From the NCBI RefSeq assembly GCF_024347495.1, contig NZ_AP025490.1, positions 2,170,001 to 2,234,000 on the forward strand: DNA of 64,000 bases. The letters run 5' to 3'. Both the position numbers and the translations under genes were made by a program. This stretch comes from Vibrio gallaecicus (GTDB taxonomy: Bacteria > Pseudomonadota > Gammaproteobacteria > Enterobacterales > Vibrionaceae). Numbering within the stretch: the stretch's first letter is position 1; each line of letters starts with the position of its first letter. Positions 19,778-64,000 of this stretch are shown one piece after another. The notes under the pieces were generated by a model. It had not been told where the DNA came from. It did not search any database and saw only the letters and a list, made by a program, of their open reading frames with translations.

Positions 19778-19947
19778 AATGGTGATGCTTGCAAGATAAG
19801 TCTGCATAACGCGAACTAACTATCAAAGACTTAAAATAACATTTGCAGCATAAGTTCGCATAAAATTGCAACGAAAGTCTGCAAATTTGAACAACGACTA
19901 AAAATCAACGTAGTAAAATTACCACACTCCAATTAATCCTCTAGCGA

Positions 19948-46596: not shown

Positions 46597-47808
46597 GTGA
46601 ATACAGGCATTCAACTTTACCCTGACGAATCGCTCGAAAGCTTCTTGTTGCGCTTATCGCAAGAGCAAGGTTACGAGCGATTCTCTCATTTCGCCGAAGA
46701 TATCTGGTTTGACACCATGGATCAGCATGAGGCGATGGCTGGTGCTTTCCCCCTAGAGTTCAACCGAGTCAATACCTACCACGCTCAAACCACAAGCCAA
46801 ATGCGGGTGCGGGTTCTTATTCATCTTGAGAACCAATTAAAGCTCAATAACTTTGGTGTATTGCGCCTAGCGTTATCACATTCAAAAGCTCAATTCTCTC
46901 CGCAATACAAAGCTGTTCATAGATTTGGTGTTGACTATCCTTATGCTTTTCTTCGTAAGCGCTTCACGCCTATTTGCCCCCTATGTATTGGCGAAGCTCC
47001 CTACATTCATCAGCAGTGGCAATTTATCTCTCACCAAGCTTGTGAACATCATGGCTGTAAACTGGTTCATCACTGCCCTGAGTGTAAGTCGAGACTTGAA
47101 TATCAAAGTACCGAGAGTATTAGCCAATGTGAATGTGGTTTTGAACTCCGAAACTCGCCAGTCGAAGATGCGCCAGAGGCTGAGCTCTTGGTCGCTCGAT
47201 GGTTATCTGGAAATGATTCACAACCCTTGGGGTTACTGAAGGGTGAGATGACGTTATCTGAGCGCTATGGCTTTTTATTTTGGTATGTAAATCGGTATGG
47301 TGATATCGATGACCTCAGTTTTGAGTCATTCATTGAGTACTGTAGCGCTTGGCCAACGGCACTGTGGCAAGACCTCGATGCTTTGAAAGAGAAGGCAGAA
47401 CTCGTTCGAGTAAAAGATTGGAAGAAGGTGTTTTTCAATGAAGCTTTTGGTGCTCTGCTTAAAGATTGCCGTCAGTTACCCAGTCGGCAGTTGAGTCACA
47501 ATATCGTACTTGCACAGGTGCTAGCTTACTTTACAAAGCTAATGGCAACAGTGCCTTCAAGCGCGAAAGGAAATATCGGCGATGTACTGCTCAGCCCCTT
47601 AGAAGCTTCTACATTACTTTCCTGTACAACAGATGAAGTGTATCGGCTGTATGAGTTTGGTGAGATTAAAGCCGCTATCAGGCCGCGAATGCATACAAAG
47701 ATAGCGAGTCACGAGTCGGCGTTTACTCTAAGAAGTGTCATCGAGACAAAGTTGACTCGAATGAGCTCTGAAAGTGATGGTTTAAGTGTGTATCTACCTG
47801 AGTGGTAA
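46597..47808 (+). CDS. tniQ: TniQ of type I-F3 CRISPR-associated transposon
   Basis: A 403-residue TniQ/TnsD-like protein. In I-F3 systems a TniQ dimer binds the Cas6-Cas7 end of Cascade and recruits TnsC to the RNA-guided site. GTG is the start (the ATG 2 bp earlier runs into TGA). The N-terminus (LYPDESLESFLLRLSQEQGY) matches the I-F3 TniQ pattern. Zinc-binding clusters are CPLC (127-130), C149/H152, CPEC (160-163) and CEC (178-180). The C-terminal part carries an HNIVLAQVLAYF segment and ends VYLPEW. It overlaps or abuts cas8/5 and so starts a four-gene operon. Confidence 0.93.
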   Translation: MNTGIQLYPDESLESFLLRLSQEQGYERFSHFAEDIWFDTMDQHEAMAGAFPLEFNRVNTYHAQTTSQMRVRVLIHLENQLKLNNFGVLRLALSHSKAQFSPQYKAVHRFGVDYPYAFLRKRFTPICPLCIGEAPYIHQQWQFISHQACEHHGCKLVHHCPECKSRLEYQSTESISQCECGFELRNSPVEDAPEAELLVARWLSGNDSQPLGLLKGEMTLSERYGFLFWYVNRYGDIDDLSFESFIEYCSAWPTALWQDLDALKEKAELVRVKDWKKVFFNEAFGALLKDCRQLPSRQLSHNIVLAQVLAYFTKLMATVPSSAKGNIGDVLLSPLEASTLLSCTTDEVYRLYEFGEIKAAIRPRMHTKIASHESAFTLRSVIETKLTRMSSESDGLSVYLPEW

Positions 47809-47810
47809 TT

Positions 47811-49898
47811 ATGACTAAATTAAGTGACTTATTAACAATTAAAGGCGAAGCAGTAAAGCAGACTGCGCTAAAGAAGATGTTCATGCCCTATACGGAGAAT
47901 GTCTGTGTTGAAGGGGCTGAAAAAAAGGCGTTAACGATCTTGCTTAATCTCAGTTCAAGCCATAAATCAGATAGATGCTCGGATTGGTTGGATGTAGCCC
48001 GTGCTAAAAGGCATTTAAAAGCGGCTGAGAACCTAAAGGCGTCCCTTGATGAAATCAAATGGTTCCACACTCATAATCTAAAGTTTCCAGACTGCCGAGT
48101 TAAAGATCAGCGAATAATTGCACAGCCTCTTGTGACAACCGAGGCATTTATTTCAAGCGCAGTATTAGAGCAACGCTTGGGGTGGGCGCATAACTCCGCG
48201 ATGTATCGCCATACATTGTGGTTATTGAATCCTTTTCGTTGGCAATCACAGCCCGTATGTATTCTTTCACTTATACAGCAAGAAAGCCCTATTTGGGTTG
48301 AGTTGCTCAAAGAATTTGGTTTAAGCGCTAAGTCACTTACTCGCTTACAAAATACACTGGCAGAAGAGCTCCCTGAGAATAGTTTTCCTAACAGTGTCAG
48401 CATTTACAGCAAGCAACTTCGGTTTCCATGGGGGGATGATTATGTTTCAGTCACACCTGTGGTCAGTCATGCTATTCAGAGCGAGTTAGAAGTGAGATCG
48501 AGAAGTCGAGAAAGTAAGCTCAGCTTTGTGTCTTCGTCACTACCAAACTCGGCAAGTATCGGGAACCTGTGTGGCAGTTTAGGTGGGTATATGAAAGTCC
48601 TAAACTACCCGATAGATGTCAAACCAGCGAAGGGTGGGACGTTAACTGAAAGTCGCAAAAAGAGTGGCCACTACTTAGATGACTATCAGGTAACTAACGC
48701 CAAAATTTGTCATGTGTTAAATCACTTAATTGGATTAGAACCATCAAAAACACAGAAGCAAAGGGGGAGCGCTCGTAAGGTTAGAAGTAAGATATTGCGA
48801 AAGCAGATAGCCCTGTGGATGCTTCCTTTAATTGAGTTAAGAGATATCGTTGATGCTGACCCTAATCAACAGCAATTGGAACATGATGACACTTTAGCTC
48901 AAGCATTTTTGGCGCTACCAGAATCGGATCTGGGCTCTCTAGCTAGTGAATTTAACAGTCGCTTGCATCTCACGTTTCAGCACAACAAGTATGCCGCGAA
49001 GTTTGCCTATCACCCTAAGCTTATGCAGGTCGCCAAAGCCCAAATCGTATGGGTACTTGAACAAATCAGTAAACCAACTAGCAATGAAGATAAGGTAACG
49101 GGTGAGCAGTATATCTATTTGTCATCAATGAGAGTGCAAGATGCGGTCGCAATGAGTAGCCCATATCTGTGTGGCGCTCCTTCTTTGACGGCTATTTGGG
49201 GTTTCATGCACCACTACCAAAGAGAGTTTAACAAGCTAGTTAATTGTGATTCTCCGTTTGAGTTTTCGAGTTTCTCTTTTTATGTTCGAAGTGAAAAAAT
49301 TCAACCGACAGCGAAGCTTACCGAACCCAACTCAGTCGCCAAAGCACGAACGGTTTCTAATGCGAAGCGACCAACTATTCGTAGTGAACGATTGGCGGAT
49401 CTAGAAATAGACCTAGTTATCAGAGTCTATAGTGACAGCCGAATTTCAGATTTTAAGTCCGCACTTAAAACGGCACTTCCAGTTGCTTTCGCCGGAGGGG
49501 CATTATACCAACCACAGCCATCGACGCAGGTTGAGTGGCTTAAGACATTTACCAGCAGGAGTGAGCTTTTCCATGTCTTAAAAGGGTTACCAGCATACGG
49601 GCGATGGTTATATCCAAGTGAAAAACAGCCGAATGATTTTGATGGGCTAGAACGTTTAATCACTAAAGACGCTGATAACTTGCCAGTTTCCATCGGCTAC
49701 CATTTGTTAGAACGTCCAACTAAACGGGGCAACTCAATCACCAGTTGTCACGCTTATGCAGAGAATGCGATAGGGATAGCTAAAAAAGTGAATCCAATAG
49801 AAGTACGTTTTAGTGGAAGAGATCACTTTTTAAACCATGCCTTTTGGTCGATAGAATGCAGTAGCGAAACTATTCTTATAAAAAACTATAGGGATTAA
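47811..49898 (+). CDS. cas8/5f: Cas8/Cas5 fusion of type I-F3 Cascade
   Basis: A 695-residue large subunit. In I-F3 complexes it caps the 5' end of the crRNA and recognises the PAM. The ATG at 47811 is preferred; a GTG at 47802 overlapping the tniQ stop is possible. The length fits the natural Cas8-Cas5 fusions of I-F3 and is greater than the separate Csy1 and Csy2 proteins of I-F1. Recognition rests on operon position between tniQ and cas7, length and general sequence character. It stops 6 bp before cas7. Confidence 0.88.
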   Translation: MTKLSDLLTIKGEAVKQTALKKMFMPYTENVCVEGAEKKALTILLNLSSSHKSDRCSDWLDVARAKRHLKAAENLKASLDEIKWFHTHNLKFPDCRVKDQRIIAQPLVTTEAFISSAVLEQRLGWAHNSAMYRHTLWLLNPFRWQSQPVCILSLIQQESPIWVELLKEFGLSAKSLTRLQNTLAEELPENSFPNSVSIYSKQLRFPWGDDYVSVTPVVSHAIQSELEVRSRSRESKLSFVSSSLPNSASIGNLCGSLGGYMKVLNYPIDVKPAKGGTLTESRKKSGHYLDDYQVTNAKICHVLNHLIGLEPSKTQKQRGSARKVRSKILRKQIALWMLPLIELRDIVDADPNQQQLEHDDTLAQAFLALPESDLGSLASEFNSRLHLTFQHNKYAAKFAYHPKLMQVAKAQIVWVLEQISKPTSNEDKVTGEQYIYLSSMRVQDAVAMSSPYLCGAPSLTAIWGFMHHYQREFNKLVNCDSPFEFSSFSFYVRSEKIQPTAKLTEPNSVAKARTVSNAKRPTIRSERLADLEIDLVIRVYSDSRISDFKSALKTALPVAFAGGALYQPQPSTQVEWLKTFTSRSELFHVLKGLPAYGRWLYPSEKQPNDFDGLERLITKDADNLPVSIGYHLLERPTKRGNSITSCHAYAENAIGIAKKVNPIEVRFSGRDHFLNHAFWSIECSSETILIKNYRD

Positions 49899-49904
49899 TC
49901 GTTT

Positions 49905-50954
49905 ATGGAACTTTGTACTCAGCTGAACTACGTACGCTCTCTTTCCGCTGGCAAAGCATATTTCTACCATCTTTCGAAAAGTGGTGAGATGTGTCCCCTT
50001 GAAATTGATAGAACTAGGTTGCGCGCACCAAAAGGGGGTTATGCAGAAGCATATAAAGGTGGCAAGTTTGTAAAAAAGAATGTTGCTCCACAAGATTTAG
50101 CTTACTCCAATCCTCAGCTCATCGAAGAGTGTTACGTAAAGCCGGGTGTCGATGATATCTACTGTGCATTCCCCCTTCGAATTCGAGCCAACTCTCTAAC
50201 TCCAGATACCTGTAGTGATGATGAAGTGCGCAGTAAACTTTCGTTACTGGCTAATACTTATAAAGAGCTCAATGGCTATCAGGAGCTCGCTCATCGATAC
50301 GCGAAGAATATCCTGCTTGGCCGTTGGCTTTGGCGTAACAGAGAGTGTCGAAAGCTGTCGATAGAAGTGACCACCAGTGACTCGCAAACTTTGATTGTCG
50401 AGAATGCAACAAGGCTTTCTTGGTATGGTTATTGGGATGAGGCTTCAGCAGAATGCCTCGAAAAGCTCACCGCCTATTTGATGCGAGCCCTGTCTGATCC
50501 GACCGAATATTTCTATATGGATGTCAAAGCTAAAATTGGAGTTGGTTGGGGAGATGAGGTTTACCCAAGCCAAGAGTTTTTAGATAGCCGAGAAGATGGC
50601 GTCCCTACTAAGCAGTTAGCTACTGTCGAACTATTAAACGGAAAGGAAACTGTTGCATTTCATGGTCAAAAAATTGGTGCAGCGTTGCAATCGATTGATG
50701 ATTGGTGGCATGAAGACGCAGATAAGCCATTAAGAGTGAATGAATACGGGGCAGACCGAGAATACGTGATTGCAAGGCGACATGTAGCGCATGGAAACGA
50801 TTTCTACCAACTACTCAGAAATACAGAAAACTGGATTGAAAGTATGACAACTTCTCAAATCATCCAAAATGATGTGCATTTTATTATGTCTGTCTTGATC
50901 AAAGGCGGTCTCTTTAATTGCTCAAGTTCAAAGTCTAAAGCGAAGGCTAAATAA
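49905..50954 (+). CDS. cas7f: Cas7f (Csy3) backbone subunit
   Basis: A 349-residue Cas7-family RRM-type protein, several copies of which coat the guide RNA with one flipped base per 6 nt. The N-terminus (QLNYVRSLSAGKAYFYH) and the YAKNILLGRWLWRNRE segment are typical of Csy3/Cas7f. It is 6 bp after cas8/5 and 9 bp before cas6. Confidence 0.92.
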   Translation: MELCTQLNYVRSLSAGKAYFYHLSKSGEMCPLEIDRTRLRAPKGGYAEAYKGGKFVKKNVAPQDLAYSNPQLIEECYVKPGVDDIYCAFPLRIRANSLTPDTCSDDEVRSKLSLLANTYKELNGYQELAHRYAKNILLGRWLWRNRECRKLSIEVTTSDSQTLIVENATRLSWYGYWDEASAECLEKLTAYLMRALSDPTEYFYMDVKAKIGVGWGDEVYPSQEFLDSREDGVPTKQLATVELLNGKETVAFHGQKIGAALQSIDDWWHEDADKPLRVNEYGADREYVIARRHVAHGNDFYQLLRNTENWIESMTTSQIIQNDVHFIMSVLIKGGLFNCSSSKSKAKAK

Positions 50955-50963
50955 GGGAGATGT

Positions 50964-51569
50964 ATGACTAAGCGTTATTACTTCTTAATACGTTACACGC
51001 ATGTTCGAGCCGACTATGAGTTATTAGCAGGGCGTTGTATCTCTCAAATGCACTTGTTTATGGTGAATAACCGACAAGCGATGAATAGGATTGGTGTGAG
51101 CTTTCCTGATTGGAATGAATCTACAGTTGGTCAAACTATTGCTTTTGTTGCCGAAGATAAAGAGGTGATGGTTGGACTCTCTTTTCAGCCTTATTTTTCT
51201 TTGATGGTAAATGAAGGTTTGTTTGAGATCTCCAGTGTTTGTGAGGTGCCTGACATTGCGGCTGAGGTGAGGTTTACCCGTAACCAAACGATCGGGAAAA
51301 GCTTTTTAGGCTCTAAGAAGCGTCGAATCAAACGAAGCATGGTTAGAGCCGAACTATCTGGTGTTGAACCATCATTACCAGAAACTAATGAAGAGCGTGT
51401 CATCGATAGTTTTCATCGAATACCAATCTCTAGTGGCTCATCAGGGGAAGATTATATTCTGTTTGTACAAAAGGAGCTTGTTAGTGAGCGCGGTGCTGCG
51501 AACTTCAATAGCTATGGCTTAGCGACGAACGAAGAAAGAAGAGGAACTGTCCCTGACTTGCGCTTTTGA
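50964..51569 (+). CDS. cas6f: Cas6f (Csy4) crRNA-processing endonuclease
   Basis: A 201-residue Cas6f that cuts the repeat RNA at the 3' base of its hairpin and stays bound to it. ELLAGRCISQMH places His30 at the position of the Csy4 catalytic histidine, and the C-terminus (YGLATNEERRGTVPDLRF) fits the Csy4 ending. AGGGAG precedes the start. It is the last gene of the operon, 128 bp upstream of the first repeat. Confidence 0.93.
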   Translation: MTKRYYFLIRYTHVRADYELLAGRCISQMHLFMVNNRQAMNRIGVSFPDWNESTVGQTIAFVAEDKEVMVGLSFQPYFSLMVNEGLFEISSVCEVPDIAAEVRFTRNQTIGKSFLGSKKRRIKRSMVRAELSGVEPSLPETNEERVIDSFHRIPISSGSSGEDYILFVQKELVSERGAANFNSYGLATNEERRGTVPDLRF

Positions 51570-51697: not shown

Positions 51698-51785
51698 CTG
51701 TCCTGCCGCATAGGCAGCTAAGAAAAAACTATAAAATTGAACTCAAAGTAGTTACGGCTGTCCTGCCGCATAGGCAGCTAAGAAT
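51698..51785 (+). CRISPR. Minimal type I-F CRISPR array: two repeats, one 32-nt spacer
   Basis: Two 28-bp repeats (51698-51725 and 51758-51785) differ only at the last base (AAGAAA versus AAGAAT). Each has the I-F hairpin CTGCC-GCATA-GGCAG followed by CTAAGAA. The 60-bp period gives a 32-nt spacer (51726-51757), the standard I-F length. The spacer target is not evident in the window. Single-spacer arrays are usual for I-F3 transposons, which lack cas1 and cas2-3, as here. Confidence 0.9.
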
Positions 51786-51831
51786 AGGCCAGGAAGAAAG
51801 CAACCCACCTGCTGAACAAGCAGTTAGTAAT
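51786..51831 (+). CRISPR. Atypical short guide plus degenerate repeat, ffs-directed
   Basis: After the second repeat comes AGGCCAGGAAGAAAGCAACC (51786-51805), which matches the conserved SRP RNA core AGGTCCGGAAGGAAGCAGCC at 16 of 20 positions. Mismatches are at guide positions 4, 6, 12 and 18. A degenerate repeat follows, with hairpin CTGCT-GAACA-AGCAG (51809-51823), compensated in the stem and changed in the loop. In repeat register it would span 51804-51831, leaving an 18-nt spacer instead of 32. In I-F3 elements such atypical guides send the transposon to its home site; ffs is a known one. Confidence 0.78.
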
Positions 51832-51834
51832 CGA

Positions 51835-51864
51835 AACCATCAAGTTTAGGCTTGATGGTTTTTT
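51835..51864 (+). terminator. Terminator of the CRISPR array
   Basis: AACCATCAAG pairs with CTTGATGGTT (10 bp perfect, 6-nt loop), followed by T to 51864. It starts 4 bp after the degenerate repeat, so the array transcript ends here and no further guide follows. Confidence 0.85.
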
Positions 51865-52527: not shown

Positions 52528-53006
52528 GAGTAGTTAATGTACCACTACAAACCAAGGTTCAGGCTAATGTAGCAAAAGCGCTAACAAGCTTTTGCCCCAT
52601 TGCGCGTTAACGTAATGATTCAGTAGCAAAACAAACCAGTCGATTTCCCATACTGGTGTTGATACCTGACGGTCATCCTATGACGATCGTTTACCGCTTA
52701 ATTTCGACCGTTACGCAATAGTGAATTGTTCAGACAGACATTATCGCTATCACCGTATTTTCATAAGAAATGGTAAAAAACACGACGCTAGTTTTAGAGT
52801 GGTTCTGTTGAAACGCTCAAAAAACACTCGCCAGCAAGCACTGAATCACTGTGTTTTGACCAATATTACGGTTGATTCTCTATATTTCTATGACATTGAG
52901 AGACTCAAAAGCCTGATCTTGGGTTGAAGTTTAAACGCCTCAACAAAGCCATGCAGCATCGCGAGTCCTCGCTTTTGTTCAAAAAACCAAAGCGCTTCGC
53001 GTCAAA
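52528..53006. other. Gene-free stretch between array side and retroelement
   Basis: No supported gene. It contains a hairpin GCAAAAGC/GCTTTTGC near 52573-52596 and one 68-codon ORF without recognisable features. If the transposon module ends before the retroelement, its boundary would lie here, but no clear terminal repeats were found. Confidence 0.45.
52993..53001 (-). other. DGR hairpin after variable repeat 1
   Basis: On the minus strand CGC-GAA-GCG forms a GNA-triloop mini-hairpin 5 bp past the end of variable repeat 1. A DNA hairpin just after the variable repeat is a known requirement for efficient retrohoming in the Bordetella phage system. Confidence 0.6.
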
Positions 53007-53132
53007 TCACTGTCCGCCGCGCACAAGACGAACATGAAAGTCGTCGTTCTTGTTATCGTAGTAGTCGTAACCAAAGTAGAAATTGACGTTCCACGCGCCG
53101 TCATAGTCGTGAGCATAGGGCGAGGAGGACCA
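53007..53132 (-). repeat. DGR variable repeat 1 (VR1)
   Basis: 126-bp copy of the template repeat at 55070-55195. By eye it differs at 20 positions, all at template adenines (coding strand). The constant ends encode WSSSPYA and HVRLVRGG. Confidence 0.92.
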
Positions 53133-53507
53133 ATAATCTGAAGCGGTATTGGGAAATATAACCGAGTTTATCGCAGGATTTATACAGCTTACCTCGACAA
53201 TCGAGTTTAACTCCTTAATATTAGGCAGCCGCCAGTCATTTTCCCCCGCAAAAGCATGCGCCTTAGCAAGGGTAAGCGCTTGTTGCCAAGTATGGCCTGA
53301 TACGCTCCCTATGCAGCTGCCGGCTTTCCATGTTTGCCCAATACTACAGCGCATCCACGTCAACCCCGTTTGTTTATCTGTCGCCGTTCCATCCCCATTG
53401 ACAGTAAAGCGACTGTCAGGGGTTGATTTATCAATGGCATCATTACACGTTGCCATTACGTTTAAGGGCAATAACCAACATAATAGGGTTAATGGTATTT
53501 TATTCAT
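53007..53507 (-). CDS. DGR target protein 2, secreted DUF1566-type
   Basis: A 166-residue protein with a signal peptide (about 1-19, ending VMA) and a single DUF1566 (Lcl_C, C-type-lectin-like) domain: TGLTWMRC, WRLPNIKELNSIV and YWSSSPYAHD are its usual landmarks. The C-terminal 41 residues are encoded by variable repeat 1 and end HVRLVRGGQ, identical to target 1. Its start overlaps the reverse transcriptase stop by 8 bp. It is probably periplasmic or released, and offers a diversified binding surface. Confidence 0.9.
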   Translation of the reverse strand: MNKIPLTLLCWLLPLNVMATCNDAIDKSTPDSRFTVNGDGTATDKQTGLTWMRCSIGQTWKAGSCIGSVSGHTWQQALTLAKAHAFAGENDWRLPNIKELNSIVEVSCINPAINSVIFPNTASDYWSSSPYAHDYDGAWNVNFYFGYDYYDNKNDDFHVRLVRGGQ

Positions 53508-55035
53508 TTAAAGGTCCTGTCGGTAGGTCATTAGCATTCACATTTGGGTTAAATAACACGCGTAAACAACGTTTTTTCAAGCCATTTTTTAGATGGCCTT
53601 GTTCATCACAAAATAGATATGCAAGATTGCCTTGCGCTAAAGCGTGGCATGCCTGCGTTAATTGACTAATCGGTATTTGTATTAAATTAGTTAAGCGAGG
53701 ATGCTTATATATGTTAAAGGTACAAGACATTGCTTTTTCATGGCGACGCTCTATCACGATCTGGTTTCCACACTGCATCAATAATACGAAAGTGGGGAAT
53801 CGTTGTTTAAAATAGTACCATTGACTAGCAAAACTACGCACGTTGGGCGGATACCAAGCCGGGCATAGTTGTTGCGGGCAAGAAAATAATAAGTTCAACC
53901 AAGCATAGCGCTTAAACAAGGTTTGCTTTAACTGATAGCTGTCAGCATGTTTAAAGTGCCCCCAATAACTATTGACTACCGCCTGCAAGTTTTGCACAAG
54001 TTCAGGTTGAAAGTCCCATTGATGTAGAGACGGTTTGAGCCGCCGCTGTGATTGCTTCAATTTTTCATGCAAATTACCTAATACGCGTTTTCGCACTAAG
54101 CGGTAATAAGGTTTAATAATGTAACCTAAAAAATTTGCACCTTGTGTCAATGGGGCAAGTATTTTTTCCTCTTTTAATGACAACGCCAGTTTTTGCTCAA
54201 GAAATTTCTCAATTTCCATTTGCCACTTCTGTAGCTGTGCTTTACTCTGATGACAAAGAATAAAGTCATCAACATAACGCACATAATGGCGACACTTAAG
54301 ATGGTGCTTAATAAATTGGTCGAGTTCGTTCATATAAATATTGGCAAAAAATTGACTGGTTAAATTGCCTATTGGCAACCCCGTATCAAGCGGCGCATTA
54401 CTTAATCTTTTATGTGCTGGCACGTTAGCAAATTCATTTTCACCCCCCAACTTTATAGCGCATTCAACCTCCACTTTTTGCCCGATAATTTGCAGGCACA
54501 ACCAATACAAGTGTCGCGATTTTTCTGTCGTCAGGTTGTTCTTCTTAATTTGCTTAGTTAAGTGCTTATTAAGCAAGTTAAGTAAGATGGGTCTTGACAC
54601 ACTATTAAAGAAGTTAGCGATATCCAACTGCAAAAACCAACCTCGACCATCAAGTTGTTGCATAAAATACTGCAAGCGGTTAACAGCAAAATGCGTGCCT
54701 TTGTTTTTACGGTTTGACGCTGCATCAAAAATAAATTGCGCGTCTAATAGACCCGTTAATTCATTAACCAAGAGGTGGTGTACCACCCTGTCTTCAAATT
54801 GAGCGGCATAAACCTCCCTTGCCTTCGGTTTGGTCACCACAAAACTTATTGGTGGTTTTGGCTGCCAGCATAAGGCTTGCAAACTATCTCGGGTAGTAAC
54901 CAGATGGTCTAGTAGCTGGGTTTGGTATAAACAGGCACCAATCGTATTTTGTTTGCCTTTCCTACATTGACGGTAGGCTCTGTCAATAGCTTGCAAATTA
55001 AAATACGCATAGCACGGTTTACCGCTAGTACGCAT
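53500..55035 (-). CDS. DGR reverse transcriptase
   Basis: A retroelement reverse transcriptase that copies the template repeat RNA with adenine-specific errors. I propose ATG at 55035 (MRTSGKPCYAYF), giving 511 residues. The same frame is open upstream through the template repeat to 55179, but those codons are template sequence. Motifs: LQLDIANFFNSV (136-147, catalytic Asp138), IGNLTSQ (222-228, the DGR-type IGxxxSQ motif) and YVDD (254-257). It is flanked by Avd and the template on one side and target 2 on the other. The true start is uncertain because no strong ribosome site is visible. Confidence 0.92.
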   Translation of the reverse strand: MRTSGKPCYAYFNLQAIDRAYRQCRKGKQNTIGACLYQTQLLDHLVTTRDSLQALCWQPKPPISFVVTKPKAREVYAAQFEDRVVHHLLVNELTGLLDAQFIFDAASNRKNKGTHFAVNRLQYFMQQLDGRGWFLQLDIANFFNSVSRPILLNLLNKHLTKQIKKNNLTTEKSRHLYWLCLQIIGQKVEVECAIKLGGENEFANVPAHKRLSNAPLDTGLPIGNLTSQFFANIYMNELDQFIKHHLKCRHYVRYVDDFILCHQSKAQLQKWQMEIEKFLEQKLALSLKEEKILAPLTQGANFLGYIIKPYYRLVRKRVLGNLHEKLKQSQRRLKPSLHQWDFQPELVQNLQAVVNSYWGHFKHADSYQLKQTLFKRYAWLNLLFSCPQQLCPAWYPPNVRSFASQWYYFKQRFPTFVLLMQCGNQIVIERRHEKAMSCTFNIYKHPRLTNLIQIPISQLTQACHALAQGNLAYLFCDEQGHLKNGLKKRCLRVLFNPNVNANDLPTGPLNE

Positions 55036-55069
55036 CGCTGCGTTCACTGCGTGTTCACCGGCCTGCACG

Positions 55070-55195
55070 TCACTTTCCGCCGCGCACAAGACGAACATGT
55101 TTGTTGTTGTTCTTGTTATTGTTGTTGTCGTTTCCATTGTTGAAATTGACGTTCCACGCGTTGTTATTGTTGTTAGCATAGGGCGAGGAGGACCA
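55070..55195 (-). repeat. DGR template repeat (TR)
   Basis: 126 bp between avd and the reverse transcriptase, rich in AAC/AAT codons on the minus strand, as expected for a template whose adenines are mutagenised. It matches both variable repeats over their full length. At 55075 the template has A (minus strand) where both variable repeats have C, in the segment near the initiation end. No hairpin like those after the variable repeats follows it. Confidence 0.92.
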
Positions 55196-55337
55196 TTTTA
55201 AGTGGTCTTCCCCCTAGCTTCCAATGACCTATCTACTTAAATTAACCGCTTTCATCCAATAGGTAGAATAGGGTCGTTTTTATACCTATTACAAAACACA
55301 CTAAATAGGTGAGTTAGGCGCACAGTGATTTGAGACA

Positions 55338-55718
55338 CTATTTATCAGGCAAACTGTTACCTTGTAAATATTCTGCTCGTGTTTTTTTATACCAACCGCC
55401 CGCTTGCTTACCCAAGCTGACAACCAATTCGGTCAGTTGCTGAAATTGAGCAAAGCCGTTAAATGCTTTTAACTCTTTTGCCAATTGCAACTGAAATTTT
55501 AAATCATCTATCAACTCACTCACCGTTTGCACCAATTTTAATTTACTCCTGTGGCGAGTAAAGGCGCGATGAATCGCTTTACATAATCGCAACGCAGTTT
55601 GCCTTAACTCATCCCCGATAGTGTATTTATGGTAACGAGAAAATTGTCGTACAGACTCCTCTACTGCGAGCAGTAATCCTTGCGACTGTCGCCATATTGG
55701 TAGTTGATGATAATTCAT
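55338..55718 (-). CDS. avd: Avd-like accessory variability protein
   Basis: A 126-residue all-helical protein, the size and character of the four-helix-bundle Avd that forms a pentamer, binds the reverse transcriptase and template RNA, and is needed for mutagenic homing. Basic residues are frequent (RLCKAIHRAFTRHRSKLK). It lies between target 1 and the template repeat, the usual place. Confidence 0.9.
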   Translation of the reverse strand: MNYHQLPIWRQSQGLLLAVEESVRQFSRYHKYTIGDELRQTALRLCKAIHRAFTRHRSKLKLVQTVSELIDDLKFQLQLAKELKAFNGFAQFQQLTELVVSLGKQAGGWYKKTRAEYLQGNSLPDK

Positions 55719-55749
55719 CTTTTACTCCTTAACACAGCAAAACACCAAA

Positions 55750-55760
55750 GCGCTGCGCGC
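55750..55760 (-). other. DGR hairpin after variable repeat 2
   Basis: On the minus strand GCGC-GCA-GCGC forms a GNA-triloop hairpin 4 bp past variable repeat 2. Sequence flanking it (CCAAAGCGCT-type) is shared with the site after variable repeat 1. Confidence 0.6.
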
Positions 55761-55764
55761 CAAA

Positions 55765-55890
55765 TCACTGTCCGCCGCGCACAAGACGAACATGTAAGCT
55801 GTTGCCCTTGTTATCGCAGTCGCCGTTTCCACCGTAGAAATAGACGTACCACGCGCCGCCATTGCTGCCCGCATAGGGCGAGGAGGACCA
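55765..55890 (-). repeat. DGR variable repeat 2 (VR2)
   Basis: 126-bp copy of the template repeat. By eye it differs at 24 positions; 23 are at template adenines and one (coding T to G, silent in an Ala codon) is not. It encodes the final 41 residues of target 1. Confidence 0.92.
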
Positions 55891-58800
55891 GAAAACAGTG
55901 GACTCCGTATTAAGAAAATAATCAGTCTCTATCGCAAGATAAGAAGCGCCGTAATCAACCAGCGAACGCAGTTCTTCTCTGTTTGGCAAACGCCAGTCGT
56001 TGCTCCCACATAAGCCCTGATTATTCACTTGTAAGGCATATTTTTCAGTGTCACAATTTTCATTGTCAACACAACTGCCATTATTTTCCGTGCCCGCATA
56101 GCCACCATCGTTAATCCCCGAGCTATTGTACCAACTGTAAGTATGCTGTTTATCACGCAAGCCTCCGTCTGTGGTTTTCACTTCCCAAATTAGCCCGGTG
56201 TGATTATCTTTAACACAAGACCAGCTTGAAGCACTCGCAGACAGGGGATGACCATTGGTATCAAGCTTCGTAAAGTCAAAACCACCAGCCCCTGCACCGA
56301 CTTTGCTTAATGCTCCTTTAGCCGCTAAGGCATCGCGCCCATGCTCAGCATCTTGCCCCTCATAACCCGTCACAGGGCAATTAAGGCCATTATTTAAAGC
56401 ATCAGAGCAGGTGGTGATGCCTGTGTCGTTGAGTTTGCCGGTGGCAATAATCACGACTTGCTCCACTAAGTTAATGGTAAATGACTGTGTGTTGGTTAAA
56501 CCTTTGTCGTTATTTACAGACACAGTGAAACCCAGTGTTGTCGCCTCACCTTTATCTGGTGTAGTGAAGGTTATTTCACCACCGCTATCAAGCTGTATGC
56601 TGCTTTCATCAAAGGCCCAGTTTGCTTGTTCAACAATGCTATAGCTGCTGATTGTTGACTGGCTACTTGCGGACCATTTTAATGTCACTCGCACCTGCTG
56701 CGCAAAGTTCGCTTGATTTGGCGCGTCAACGGTTAACTGTGGTTTTGTGGTAGGCTCAATGGCGATGCTATTGGCGGTGATTATCACATCGTCAGCGAAC
56801 TGCACTGCCAATTGGTAAGAATACGCCCCTGTTTCAGGTGCTTGTGCATCTAAAAAGCTTGTTTGGCTCTGGCTCATATCCAACACAATTGCTTGATACT
56901 CCGCATTAAAACCGGCTTGAGCTTCAGTAAATGTCGGCGAGCGAGTAATAAATAATGCTTTGACGCTATACAAATCATTTAAACTGTTTACAAAGTTCGG
57001 CCAGTTAAGTTGCAACTGCGTTAATTCATTAACAAAGGCATACGTTACCCCTAAATCGATACGACTTGGGTCAGTTTTGTTAACGAACTCTTCATGGTTT
57101 GAAAAACCATCTCGGTCTTTATCTTGCCCAGCATCAGATTCGTTCGACAAGTCAAACGAATTTTGATACTCCCAGCTATCCGGCATCTTGTCATTGTCTG
57201 TATCTAATGACTTGGGATTGCCTCCTATTTGGAACTCAAGCAAATTTGATAAGCCATCACCATCAGCATCACATAGGGCAGGATTTGCCAATAAGTCTAA
57301 CTCGTCAAGATCACATTGATTATTGTTTTCATTTATTGCTAGCGTAAAGTTAAATCCATAGTGTTTTTCCCAACCGTCACTTAACCCATCGTTATCAGAA
57401 TCAGGGTTTTGTGGATCACTGGCATTAACGCTTGCATCGTTACCATTTAACCAGTTTCTACCCTCTGTATTGGGTGTATCACTAGTCATGGATTTCGGGT
57501 TTGAACAAAAGCTGCTGCTATTAATATGAATGTTATCTTCACCTAAAAATTCTTGGTGATTGCTTAAACCATCGGCGTCAGGGTCAAGCTTAGCATCATT
57601 AAACAGTGGATTGAGCTGGTTTGTATCTTCCCAGCCGTCTGGCAAGCAATCTCTATCGGAATCCCATACTTGCGGGTAGGTGCCTAGTTCAAATTCTTGT
57701 AAATTGGTTAAACCATCAGAGTCTACATCGTCGCTCGCAGCATATTGTAATGATTCAAAGAAACGATTTTCCCATTTATCTGATAAACCATCTTCATCAA
57801 CATCATCACTGACGTTGATGGCTGTTTTTACATAACGCCTTGCGAAGGCTCCAAGGTTACCCCAACCAGAAAAGTAAACATCTAATGACTCCACGGTTGG
57901 TTTTGTTTCATTTGAACCAGGCACAGGCAACTCATCTGGTAGCCAGAAGCTTTGTTGATACGCTTTGCCGGGTACTATAATTTGTAATGGTTCATACTCA
58001 ATACCATCTCGTGGCACCACATCAAACCCGGCACTCTCATCATTAAATTCATTATTTTTACCCGAGTCGTTGACTACACCTTTTACGGTAAAGAGTCGAC
58101 CAGTAACCCCGTTCCTCTCTTCTACTTCCGTTCGATTAGTTAAATACTCAATCTCTAATTGCGGCAGTGAGTAAATAGTGTATTTACCCGTCCATTTTTT
58201 GCCATACTCAATGGGGTTAAATTCAACAAACAGAAAGTCTAAATTTATGCCTGTGTAAAGGTCTAAGCCTAGGTTTGAGTTCAATGTAGTGAGTTGATAT
58301 TGGTAAACATCATCATCAAGACCTGTTAGCAGTGGTAACTGAGCACTGGCTTGAGCACCAAAATTCATATCTAACCAAGGTTGCATTGATAACGTGCCTG
58401 TTGCTACTTCATAAAAGCTCACTTCAAGTGTTGGTATTAAACGAATTTCAGCAGTTGCCTCTACTGACCCATCAATAGAAACAGTGATCTCTTTGTCAAA
58501 CTCACTAGAAGAGACAGGGTAATATTTGCCAATTTCACAAGGCGCGAGTTTACCTGTTTCAGGGTCTTCCTTAGAGTAAGGGTCTGTGCCCGTGGTACAT
58601 AACCTAACGCCGAACTTAATATTAGAGTAGGCTTTAGCCACGGCTGCAGCAGTAACCTGCCCACTTACCTCCGCGGATGCTTTCGCATCTAAGCTTAAAG
58701 TAATTCGCTGATAGATAGGCACAAGCCCAGCGTGAGAAACTTGCACAAAAGTTCGTTTGAATAATTTAAAGTCTTTATTTGCTTTGGCTTCGGCTGCTGC

Positions 58801-60507
58801 TTGAAATTGCGCATATACCATCAATGACAGGTCGACGTCAGCAATCACTTCTGCTTCTGTTATTTTTTTACCTTCAAGCATAAGCTTGGTCTGAAGCTTT
58901 GGCTCAAAATCAAATAGAACATCCATACCCATATCAAAATCGGCAGTTGCTGAAACTTGTAAATTTTGTCCCGCTTCAGCTTTTTCTTCCATCACATCAA
59001 CACTAATGCGTTTGTCTACAAAGTGTGTACCATCTACTTTTGCACGTAAAACAAAACTGTAATTACAAACCCCCTTAATCTTATCTGACTGTGCTTTGAA
59101 AATTAGGCGGTCGTCATTGGTTTTTGATACCGTTAATGCGCCTTTTTCATATTTGCAGGACTTCGATTCATTAGGTTTAAGTGATTCTAATTTTTTAAGT
59201 TTCTTAGGGTTAAGTGGTTCTAAAATAAGTTCATATTTTTTATCTTTTATTGCATCACTTAGTTTTACGTTATAACTGAGGATGAGGTTATCTGAAGCTT
59301 TGATCACAACATTTGTGGTACCACATAATGTAACGCCATTTCTCTCAATACAGTCAACCTCTAAACCATCTGTTGAACGTGAAGACTTGGATGGTTGACT
59401 AGCACTTACTCCAAGCAAGCGGCTCTTAAAGGCGGAGGATATTTCAGCTTCTTCAATATAATTAACCTGCTCTGCATGTAATAGGTTACCACTTGAACGG
59501 TAACCTGATTGAGCTTGCTTCATTGCACCAGCATATTTAGACTTAGCCTTTGCAATCGGTATCGCATTCATCAGCAATGTTGAGTTAATTTCAACCTGAG
59601 AAACCAATTGATCAAGCGACGTTTTTTCACTGACAACAGTGATTTTATCAGTGTTGTCAGTCACTGCAGTCACCTTACGTAGGTATGCTGTATCATTAGT
59701 TGTTTTACCAATAATGATATCACCTGCTTTAGGTATCTCTGTTGCTGTAAGCTTAGAGAATTCAAAACTGTCATTTGGTAGTACAGTTGCTTTTGATAAG
59801 CCATTATCCATTGGTGTATTTAGTGTAATGTTAGGCTGTAATACTGTTTCAATAGATGAGGTTTGGTGTGCAAAAAGTAGGCTAGGATAAGCTTGCCCAC
59901 TATAGGTTCTAACGACTAAAAAGTAGTATTGTTGGCCCGCTACTAGGTTAGCTATCTCCGCTTCATTAACATTGGAAGTTATTACTTTAGGTTGCTTGGT
60001 AGTGTAGTCAAAACCTTTTTCCGTTTCTGCATAGAGTTCATAAGTCACATCAGTAAGATATTCGGTTTCATACCAAGCTAATTTCACTGCGCTTGTGCTA
60101 ACACTGGTAACTGTTAATATTTCGGGGACGCTTGTTAATACGTTATTTGTTAGTGTTATATTGATTGAATCACTATTCTTAGCGCCATTATTATCAGTGA
60201 CAGTCACTTTAAACGTTAATACTTCATCTTTTGTTACTACTGGCGCGACAAAACTCGCAGTTAATGTATCGGTTGCTGACAAATTTACATTTGGGCCCAG
60301 TTGTTGCACCCATTCAATTTTATCTATCGTACCATCAAGGTCTGAGGCACTAGCACTAAAAGTGGCGGTTTCGGATGATACTACAGTAAAATCATCTCCA
60401 GCATTAACAAAGGGGATTCTGTTCTCTCTTTCTGGTGAGCTCTCCCCACCACAGGCCGTTAACATAAATATAAATAGTAACGAGCTTATCAATTTGAATA
60501 ATTTCAT
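55765..60507 (-). CDS. DGR target protein 1, large surface lipoprotein
   Basis: A 1,580-residue lipoprotein (lipobox LTAC, Cys19). Order: PKD/Ig-like domain (about 28-120), fibronectin III-like domain (about 130-220), a large region of unknown fold (about 220-900), Ca-binding thrombospondin-3-type repeats (DVDEDGLSD, DSDNDGLSD and similar, about 925-1190), another Ig-like stretch and a C-terminal DUF1566 domain (about 1400-1580) that includes variable repeat 2 and ends HVRLVRGGQ. It heads the retroelement cassette; avd follows after 46 bp. The layout suggests a cell-attached stalk that presents a variable binding domain. Confidence 0.9.
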   Translation of the reverse strand: MKLFKLISSLLFIFMLTACGGESSPERENRIPFVNAGDDFTVVSSETATFSASASDLDGTIDKIEWVQQLGPNVNLSATDTLTASFVAPVVTKDEVLTFKVTVTDNNGAKNSDSINITLTNNVLTSVPEILTVTSVSTSAVKLAWYETEYLTDVTYELYAETEKGFDYTTKQPKVITSNVNEAEIANLVAGQQYYFLVVRTYSGQAYPSLLFAHQTSSIETVLQPNITLNTPMDNGLSKATVLPNDSFEFSKLTATEIPKAGDIIIGKTTNDTAYLRKVTAVTDNTDKITVVSEKTSLDQLVSQVEINSTLLMNAIPIAKAKSKYAGAMKQAQSGYRSSGNLLHAEQVNYIEEAEISSAFKSRLLGVSASQPSKSSRSTDGLEVDCIERNGVTLCGTTNVVIKASDNLILSYNVKLSDAIKDKKYELILEPLNPKKLKKLESLKPNESKSCKYEKGALTVSKTNDDRLIFKAQSDKIKGVCNYSFVLRAKVDGTHFVDKRISVDVMEEKAEAGQNLQVSATADFDMGMDVLFDFEPKLQTKLMLEGKKITEAEVIADVDLSLMVYAQFQAAAEAKANKDFKLFKRTFVQVSHAGLVPIYQRITLSLDAKASAEVSGQVTAAAVAKAYSNIKFGVRLCTTGTDPYSKEDPETGKLAPCEIGKYYPVSSSEFDKEITVSIDGSVEATAEIRLIPTLEVSFYEVATGTLSMQPWLDMNFGAQASAQLPLLTGLDDDVYQYQLTTLNSNLGLDLYTGINLDFLFVEFNPIEYGKKWTGKYTIYSLPQLEIEYLTNRTEVEERNGVTGRLFTVKGVVNDSGKNNEFNDESAGFDVVPRDGIEYEPLQIIVPGKAYQQSFWLPDELPVPGSNETKPTVESLDVYFSGWGNLGAFARRYVKTAINVSDDVDEDGLSDKWENRFFESLQYAASDDVDSDGLTNLQEFELGTYPQVWDSDRDCLPDGWEDTNQLNPLFNDAKLDPDADGLSNHQEFLGEDNIHINSSSFCSNPKSMTSDTPNTEGRNWLNGNDASVNASDPQNPDSDNDGLSDGWEKHYGFNFTLAINENNNQCDLDELDLLANPALCDADGDGLSNLLEFQIGGNPKSLDTDNDKMPDSWEYQNSFDLSNESDAGQDKDRDGFSNHEEFVNKTDPSRIDLGVTYAFVNELTQLQLNWPNFVNSLNDLYSVKALFITRSPTFTEAQAGFNAEYQAIVLDMSQSQTSFLDAQAPETGAYSYQLAVQFADDVIITANSIAIEPTTKPQLTVDAPNQANFAQQVRVTLKWSASSQSTISSYSIVEQANWAFDESSIQLDSGGEITFTTPDKGEATTLGFTVSVNNDKGLTNTQSFTINLVEQVVIIATGKLNDTGITTCSDALNNGLNCPVTGYEGQDAEHGRDALAAKGALSKVGAGAGGFDFTKLDTNGHPLSASASSWSCVKDNHTGLIWEVKTTDGGLRDKQHTYSWYNSSGINDGGYAGTENNGSCVDNENCDTEKYALQVNNQGLCGSNDWRLPNREELRSLVDYGASYLAIETDYFLNTESTVFWSSSPYAGSNGGAWYVYFYGGNGDCDNKGNSLHVRLVRGGQ

Positions 60508-62707: not shown

Positions 62708-64000
62708 ATGACAACATCTTGGCTATATCAACATAAAAAAACGCTTTTAGCACCTGCAATTACCGCTGCTCTTTTAAGTGGCTGTGGTGGCAGTGACTCA
62801 GAGCCCAAATCAACAACGTTTTCCGTCACTGCAATTGATGGATACCTACATAACGCAGAAGTTTTGGTAGATACCAATCAAGACAATACCTGCGATAAAA
62901 CATTGGGCATGACTAATGAGCAAGGTAAATTAGATGTTGATACCGTTTATCAAAATAAACGAATTTGCGTTACAGCAAAAGCCGGTGAAGCCATAGACTT
63001 AACGCGCGGCGTAGTTGAAAAAGAGTTTATTCTTAAAGCCCCCGCAGGATCGAAAGTCGTTACCCCTTTCACTAATCTCGTCGTTGATATATTGACCATC
63101 AATGATAGGTTAACCGCAGAAGAAGTAAAAAAGGATTTACTTGCAGCCATTCAAGATAGTGGCATAGACGTTGATGAAACAACAGCATTTGGTGATTACC
63201 TCGCCTCTGCGCAATCCTTAACGCCAGAACAGCAAGTTAAAAGTAAAAAACTCGAAATTATCGGCGAAGCATTAGTTGATGCTCAAGGTAAGTCAAACTA
63301 CGCTGCTGCAACGCAATTAAACCTCGTGAAAGCAATTGCCGAACAAATTAAAGACATTAATAAATTGGTAGATCTTCAAGATATCCAGCCTACAGTAAAA
63401 GAGGATGGCACCCTAGTGCCTGCAATTAATCATCGACCTAAATTTATTGGAAATGATTTAGAACCTTACGAAGCATCGATTGTTGATGGAGAAGAGATGC
63501 TACAAATTGATCGAAGTGTCGAACTCAAATTCACAGATTCAGATGCTAACAAGCTTACGTTTAAAATCAAATCACTAACAGGTGACCAACCTCATGTGAC
63601 GATCTCTGACGAAGGTATTATTTCGGGTATTCAACAAAATAAAGCGGGAAATTATCTTTTTCATATTTATGTCATCGATAGTAATGGCGCAAAATCTCGT
63701 CCTGTCCCATTTAAATTGACACTAATAACCTCAAATAAAGCGCCAGTCCTAAACCCTACACAAGCAGAAGAATTTATATTTGACATCAAAGCGTTAGAAT
63801 TTGTCAAAGGCATTAATTTTCCTGAGCAAGTTTTTTCACTTAACGACATATTTACCGATCCAGATGGAGATGTGATTACTTATACAGTGACTACCGCACC
63901 AAAAGCGAATGGCTTGAATGTATCAATTAACCAACAGCAACTCCAAATTAGTGGTACGCCTATTCAATCAGGTAATCTTGACATCACTATTACTGCTACG
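62708..64000 (+). CDS. Large lipoprotein, N-terminal part (runs off window)
   Basis: An open frame of 431 codons without a stop before the window end. The ATG is preceded by AGGA. Lipobox LSGC places the lipidated Cys at 26. A carboxypeptidase-regulatory-like segment follows (SVTAIDGYLHNAEVLVDTNQ), then a helical region with VVTPFTNLVVDIL. Next come cadherin or putative-Ig-type domains (DSDANKLTFKI, DPDGDVITYTV, LQISGTPIQSG). It is like large surface lipoproteins of marine gamma-proteobacteria. Whether it ends in a DUF1566 domain cannot be seen. Confidence 0.78.
   Translation, partial: MTTSWLYQHKKTLLAPAITAALLSGCGGSDSEPKSTTFSVTAIDGYLHNAEVLVDTNQDNTCDKTLGMTNEQGKLDVDTVYQNKRICVTAKAGEAIDLTRGVVEKEFILKAPAGSKVVTPFTNLVVDILTINDRLTAEEVKKDLLAAIQDSGIDVDETTAFGDYLASAQSLTPEQQVKSKKLEIIGEALVDAQGKSNYAAATQLNLVKAIAEQIKDINKLVDLQDIQPTVKEDGTLVPAINHRPKFIGNDLEPYEASIVDGEEMLQIDRSVELKFTDSDANKLTFKIKSLTGDQPHVTISDEGIISGIQQNKAGNYLFHIYVIDSNGAKSRPVPFKLTLITSNKAPVLNPTQAEEFIFDIKALEFVKGINFPEQVFSLNDIFTDPDGDVITYTVTTAPKANGLNVSINQQQLQISGTPIQSGNLDITITAT

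Follow-up and report, generated by a model that had tools for sequence, protein, structure and literature searches.

A 46-nt ffs-directed homing unit in an I-F3 CRISPR-associated transposon of Vibrio gallaecicus and its probable use by a smaller Cascade

The last unit of a CRISPR array in Vibrio gallaecicus (positions 51778-51823 of the window, by which we mean the whole analysed stretch of 64,000 nt) probably encodes a 46-nt homing crRNA of an I-F3 CRISPR-associated Tn7-like transposon (CAST). The guide of this crRNA would be 20 nt long, would be carried by a Cascade with four Cas7 copies and would lead to insertion nearer to its target, and we hold this reading with good confidence. The argument rests on what can be read from the genomes: the unit length, the limits of pairing between guide and target, the conservation of both in relatives, the TSDs, and insertion points that track the length of the guide.

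The transposon and the last unit of its array

The transposon is 53 kb long and extends from 19783 to beyond the window end at 64000 (no strand assigned), with its left end TGATGCTTGCAAG at 19783. The scan of the window with Rfam gave no match reaching the gathering score, and the ffs (SRP RNA) gene was therefore sought in the host genome, where the Rfam SRP model found it (RF00169) at C1:2242869-2242965, 9 kb beyond the window. Reading the sequence on past the window we found that the transposon adjoins this gene, its end lying directly behind ffs at about window-equivalent 72859. The left TSD, AATGG, occupies 19778-19782 (no strand assigned) and its right copy, outside the window at window-equivalent 72860-72864, is placed between the right transposon end and ffs; the 5-bp duplication that marks an I-F3 CAST is present on both sides. 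The left end was located via this TSD pattern, and a pattern search for TnsB sites returned mostly noise among the matches listed. The TGATG-type ends go with TSD AATGG here and with AAAAG and CCTTA (G317) in relatives. An end reading TGT with TSD TTTGA was also considered and was rejected, as it gives no duplication at the window element.

The gene set of an I-F3 CAST is complete. On the forward strand tniQ (46597-47808, PF06527), a cas8/5 fusion (47802-49898; PF09614 over residues 438-579, called a fusion from its length and kinship), cas7 (csy3, 49905-50954, PF09615) and cas6 (csy4, 50964-51569, PF09618) form one gene run, while tnsA, tnsB and tnsC together with an HTH gene were found by Pfam outside the window (L002:8850-12760; PF08722, PF09299 and PF05621), the HTH_3 protein lying beside tnsC. 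I-F Cas2/3 (TIGR02562) has no match anywhere in the genome of the window, and no Cas12k effector of the V-K CASTs occurs beside the array, whose neighbours are tniQ and the I-F cas genes. The traits of the I-F3b ffs group are an att site at ffs, a TC PAM and an atypical last repeat, all of which are present, and a homing guide of 32 nt, which is absent, the unit being 46 nt long and pairing to nt 20. The group also has an RtbC-type Xre regulator, and the HTH_3 protein next to tnsC is a candidate for it, with RtaC kinship as the alternative.

The cargo of the transposon includes a diversity-generating retroelement (DGR) at 52980-60507. It consists of an RVT_1 reverse transcriptase (53500-55179, reverse strand), an Avd-like protein (55338-55718, reverse strand), a template repeat at about 55043-55195 and two variable repeats (52980-53132 and 55738-55890) each at the end of an Lcl_C-domain protein; template adenines account for 27 of 40 and 30 of 43 of the repeat differences. 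A repeat protein of 6180 aa is encoded at 20317-44190 beside HlyD and two ABC-transporter genes, a set that may represent a giant adhesin and a dedicated type I secretion system.

Behind tniQ-cas8/5-cas7-cas6 (46597-51569) stands a small CRISPR array on the forward strand. Two repeats of typical I-F sequence (51698-51725 and 51758-51785, the last base of the second being T and not A) enclose an ordinary spacer of 32 nt (51726-51757). We presume a repeat register of 28 nt with an I-F handle of 8 nt; by this register, taken from the repeat and the preceding 32-nt spacer, the end of repeat 2 (51778-51785) provides the 5' handle CTAAGAAT of the homing crRNA. The 20-nt guide AGGCCAGGAAGAAAGCAACC follows at 51786-51805, and after it come a linker of 3 nt, CAC (51806-51808), shorter than the 5 nt that precede the stem in typical repeats, and the atypical hairpin CTGCTGAACAAGCAG (51809-51823), the presumed Cas6 site. 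As the preliminary description had stated, this hairpin is degenerate and compensated, both sides of the stem being altered while its 5 bp are preserved. The last repeat finishes at 51824-51831 with TTAGTAAT, a degenerate stretch resembling a handle, and an intrinsic terminator with an 11-bp stem and a T-run (51835-51864) closes the unit, again as described. From the handle through the end of the hairpin the last unit measures 46 nt, compared to 60 nt for an ordinary unit. In strict repeat register the spacing is 18 nt; by conservation it is read as a guide of 20 nt and a linker of 3 nt.

The hairpin of the unit is weak (-5.8 kcal/mol), the stem of the terminator being stronger, and the 46-nt unit folds no better than 200 shuffled versions of it (z 0.03; 92 of 200 as good). 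The support for this hairpin, judged from the sequences, is its conservation and not its fold energy.

Guide pairing with ffs and the length classes of relatives

Of the 20 guide positions 16 agree with the host ffs, beside a TC PAM, and among all 20-mers of the window compared with all 20-mers of ffs on both strands the guide forms the only pair with at least 16 matches. Together with the position of the element at ffs and its TSD this confirms that the guide is directed at ffs for homing. The mismatches lie at positions 6, 12, 13 and 18. The preliminary description had listed 4, 6, 12 and 18, which needs correction: position 4 matches, the host having C there, and position 13 does not, the host having G.

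To place the unit among its relatives the Cas6 protein of the window was used as query, and relatives were found in 84 of 329 genomes of the host's family. The stretch behind cas6 was read in 70 loci from 67 of these 84 genomes. An ffs guide was found in 58 of the 70 loci, 51 of them in short units of 46-49 nt and 7 in long units of 60-62 nt; a guide shorter than the standard by about two steps of 6 nt, noticed at first in the window, is thus common to a whole group of relatives. The other 12 loci are without a scorable ffs guide: two end with their contigs (L014, L078), two gave no array (L085, L098), four have no ffs guide (L099-L102), three aim at an AraC-family gene (L064, L071, L073), and in L023 the unit, of 46 nt, lies 2 kb further on and is visible in L171. 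Two guides had no ffs match (G143, G084), leaving 56 of 58 for scoring, and one more had no transposon end (G186), leaving 55 distances. The relatives share history, and counts over them are not independent.

Scored each against its own ffs and with the flipped positions left aside, the short guides (49 rows) match in 795 of 833 cells over nt 1-20 (without 6, 12 and 18) and in 126 of 490 cells over nt 21-32 (without 24 and 30); of these 126 matches 104 come from columns 26, 31 and 32, which fall in the hairpin. The seven long guides match in 55 of 70 cells over the same distal positions. Short guides hence pair to nt 20 and long guides to about nt 32. In the 38 aligned units of 46 nt position 19 is C in 38 and position 20 is C in 37, nt 21-22 being variable. 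These pairing limits and the conservation of nt 19-20 indicate a guide of about 20 nt. Over the 29 distinct guide/ffs pairs (24 distinct guides) nt 1, 2, 5, 8, 9, 11, 16 and 19 match in all 29, and nt 10, 14, 17 and 20 in 28. Of 42 units of 46 nt, 32 carry the hairpin CTGCTGAACAAGCAG unchanged and 10 carry a near-identical form that retains 5 bp. A PAM tally gave TC 55 times and CC once, and is no independent survey, the search patterns having presupposed GG[TC]C before the protospacer.

The suggestion had been made that the guide of the window is deliberately tolerant at the flipped positions. The observation behind it stands, for positions 6, 12 and 18 match in only 2 of 147 cells of the short class. 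However, the long guides match in 0 of 21 cells at these positions and in 0 of 14 at 24 and 30 (together 0 of 35), and the mismatches are therefore, as far as the aligned guides tell, a trait of ffs guides generally and not of the short form. Positions 6, 12 and 18 of the 24 distinct guides hold A 44 times, T 24 times, C three times and G once. This suggests that pairing of the flipped bases, or G, is avoided in both length classes, with counts inflated by relatedness.

In a scan of GTDB species genomes with one peptide pattern we found 47 loci, several of which are contigs already in the family set. A short ffs unit occurs in 22 of them (Vibrio, a Vibrionales record and Neiella) and a long unit in 18 (Photobacterium, Enterovibrio, Grimontia, Marinomonas, Maribrevibacterium, Marinobacter, Neptunomonas, Pseudoalteromonas, Ferrimonas and an Aeromonadaceae MAG), the remaining 7 loci being without a readable ffs unit; the units of L171 and L197 were classed by hand. 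Viral contigs contained no relative. Unit lengths fall into two groups, 46-50 and 60-62 nt. In a tree of Cas6 nearly all short forms (55 rows) stand together, apart from the long forms and Tn6900, with weak support for the fork uniting them (84/43) and with the 49-nt form of G084 outside the group. In the three loci directed at an AraC-family gene (Pfam HTH_18, HTH_AraC) the unit measures 60 nt twice and 50 nt once, the target of the Vibrio penaeicida plasmid locus being assigned by guide likeness only. The two 60-nt AraC guides belong to the short Cas6 group, and unit length therefore seems tied both to the guide and to the lineage.

Further arrangements were seen in some loci. In G042 (L065) a 60-nt unit with an atypical repeat lies ahead of the 46-nt ffs unit, and this array perhaps holds two homing guides. 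CRISPR-repeat-like remnants occur at about 12.2-12.3 kb in L210, on the tnsA side of the Vibrio penaeicida plasmid CAST. Five genomes, G311 (L157), G024 (L154), G022, G020 and G031, have a second, diverged copy of ffs close to that end of the element where the array lies, its location being read for the first two; it may be a decoy site, a relic or a spare SRP RNA.

Insertion distance, guide length and alternative explanations

The transposon end lies 68-75 nt from the PAM in 48 of 48 rows with short guides and 79-81 nt from the PAM in 7 of 7 rows with long guides. Of 36 short rows with TGA-type ends, the type of the window, 34 have the end at 68 and 2 at 69, array and ffs being on different contigs in 5 of the 36. 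The other 12 of the 48, at 68-75, have other ends, may partly be second elements, and include an outlier at 75 (G042). As left ends were not found in the stretches read for G290, G024, G050, G003 and G315, and the array-side end of G152 is tentative, most of these distances rest on end similarity. The values can be written as 68 = 20 + 48 and 80 = 32 + 48, although the length step is inexact, the units differing by 10-16 nt and the insertion points by 10-13 nt (TGA ends) or 4-13 nt (all short rows). In the window, insertion lies 48 bp past guide nt 20, inside the 46-52 bp that characterise an I-F3 CAST; counted from a 32-bp target it would be 36. PMC10201428 gives 46-52 bp past the 32-bp target for VchCAST, and a distance of 36 past nt 32 does not fit such a target.

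A second end family (TGTCGC/TGTCGT/TGTTGTT) was also observed to abut ffs (L035, L054, L057, L060, L106, L108, L110, L112, L113, L122, L127, L134). In some of these genomes the nearby array belongs to the TGA-ended group, and tandem CASTs are possible. Such an end at the SRP-RNA is listed for V. cholerae DRAKES2103 (PMC6360697, Table 1).

The two ffs classes are set apart by transposon ends and family as well, and taken by itself the difference between them might reflect family; guide length is separated from family by two cross-checks only. One of them is the Vibrio plasmid pTHAF190c, a near relative with a 46-nt ffs unit and TGA-type ends, whose element splits a plasmid methyltransferase gene. 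Outside the array itself, the closest counterpart of its 32-nt spacer within the 42-kb locus lies in this gene, where 23 of 32 positions agree next to a CC PAM; the element starts 47 nt past this protospacer with TSD AAAAG. As 200 shuffled versions of the spacer gave a mean of 18 and a maximum of 24 matches within 4 kb, the match alone is within chance, and it is its place and orientation that count. The other cross-check is a pair of elements at the same spot of the AraC-family gene, with the same guide start and end type. Insertion lies 51 nt past nt 32 in G122 (unit of 60 nt, TSD GCGTT) and 37 nt past nt 32 in G290 (unit of 50 nt, far end not found in the stretch read), a shift of 14 nt. 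The latter comparison is one against one, and the former involves one element.

With these data the alternatives can be weighed. It could be argued that a short guide is used by a normal Cascade with six Cas7 and that the nearer insertion is due to the transposase of the family or to a TnsB preference beside ffs. The different ends of the two ffs classes agree with this, and local preferences of TnsB are described as shifting the site (PMC10201428), yet within the 46-52 bp of the 32-bp target, a range that excludes the observed 36. Moreover, the near relative with TGA-type ends sits 47 nt past its 32-nt protospacer, and the AraC pair shows a shift in the same direction at an unrelated gene with the same end type. 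We therefore regard this explanation as unlikely. On these grounds the insertion distance seems to be governed by guide length, which is what one would expect of a homing Cascade with four Cas7, and the smaller Cascade proposed from the window sequence is suggested by the nearer insertion of short guides, at the AraC gene as well as at ffs, and by the 47 nt of pTHAF190c.

Two further explanations concern the unit itself. If its last hairpin were unused, the crRNA could reach to the terminator hairpin or be trimmed otherwise, giving a long crRNA with an unpaired distal part. Such a reading takes its strength from the weakness of the unit hairpin, which is no better than shuffles, beside the stronger terminator stem. 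It leaves unexplained why the 5-bp hairpin is kept in 42 of 42 units of 46 nt and why the insertion distance fits 20 nt, and an unpaired distal part should block licensing, to go by PMC12774636; we consider it very unlikely. Even less probable, in our estimate, is that the unit is a decayed full-length guide that became superfluous once the element resided at ffs. The last repeat is indeed degenerate, but guide positions are conserved across the 29 distinct guide/ffs pairs, and against decay stand also the two length groups (46-50 and 60-62) and their matching insertion points.

Proposed mechanism and related systems

For the short homing guide we propose the following. Cas6 would cut after both hairpins and release an 8-nt handle, the 20-nt guide and a short 3' stem. 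According to PMC7296934 the spacer length in I-F Cascades is L = 6N - 4, by which 20 nt would seat four Cas7 and not six. TniQ and TnsC would then be placed about two Cas7 steps (12 bp) nearer to the PAM, and, with about 48 bp from guide end to insertion, a guide ending at nt 20 would give 68 from the PAM where one ending at nt 32 gives 80. As the array also carries a 32-nt spacer, one protein set might form complexes of two sizes, the long one for use elsewhere and the short one at home. The RNA processing, the number of Cas7 copies with the size of the complex, and the advantage of a private guide are inferred.

The short guide may omit about two tolerant segments, keep the seed and move the licensing end forward. 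In VpCAST (I-F3a) transposition tolerates mismatches at 13-17 and 19-23 with little loss, is severely impaired by mismatches at 7-11 and is abolished by those at 25-29 (PMC12774636); the tolerance suggests that about 12 nt are dispensable. The loss at 25-29 speaks against the proposal, the required pairs 25-29 being absent from a 20-nt guide. Shortened spacers were reportedly inactive in Tn6677 in the original study behind a later review. The summary that this review gives of shortened spacers in a CAST is ambiguous (PMC10188703). As to immunity, assembly, binding and R-loop formation are retained in I-F1 complexes shortened by 12, while Cas2/3 is not triggered (PMC7296934); a resident I-F1 Cascade with a 20-nt R-loop could likewise bind ffs without triggering Cas2/3, which would leave the self-directed guide harmless. 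I-F1 Cas2/3 (TIGR02562) occurs in 4 of 63 genomes searched, all four with short guides, which is uninformative since most guides are short. On balance we lean slightly towards the fuller reading, in which one protein set builds a six-Cas7 or a four-Cas7 complex by guide length alone, the two least-contributing middle segments are dropped, and the guide is private from I-F1 Cas2/3.

The closest known systems are the I-F3 CASTs with full-length guides at ffs, namely the Aeromonas salmonicida pS44-1 element, presumably Tn6900, and those of Photobacterium, Enterovibrio and Grimontia. They share tniQ-cas8/5-cas7-cas6 and tnsABC (annotated for pS44-1), the guide start, the atypical last unit and the lack of matches at 6, 12 and 18 (7 scored rows), and pS44-1 carries an ffs-like unit of 60 nt. 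They differ in unit length (60-62 nt, against 46-49 in the short class), in insertion distance (79-81 nt from the PAM in 7 of 7, against 68-75) and in pairing that continues to about nt 32. The V-K CASTs use Cas12k and have no Cas7 backbone. Their homing crRNA for the att site is truncated and kept apart from the other guides (PMC11406308), a likeness to the unit reported here, whereas their targets are mostly tRNA genes and their effector is unrelated. The laboratory I-F1 Cascades with spacers shortened by 6, 12 and 18 are similar in that 20 nt should seat four Cas7 and the form shortened by 12 binds and forms an R-loop; they are engineered, and were assayed for interference by Cas2/3 and not for transposition (PMC7296934). 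The open literature searched, in its accessible text, makes no mention of a short ffs homing unit, which may nevertheless have been described before.

Public genomes suffice to check the length classes and the insertion points, and the R-loop length needed to license transposition would become testable with wild sequences, which bears on the need of VpCAST for pairs 25-29. The unit also hints at a compact guide format for laboratory tools. A short guide would be a further way, besides atypical repeats and mismatches, to shield a self-directed guide from host immunity. If the proposal is true, a natural RNA-guided transposase homes by an R-loop of reduced length, and the distance at which it inserts moves with the length of its guide.
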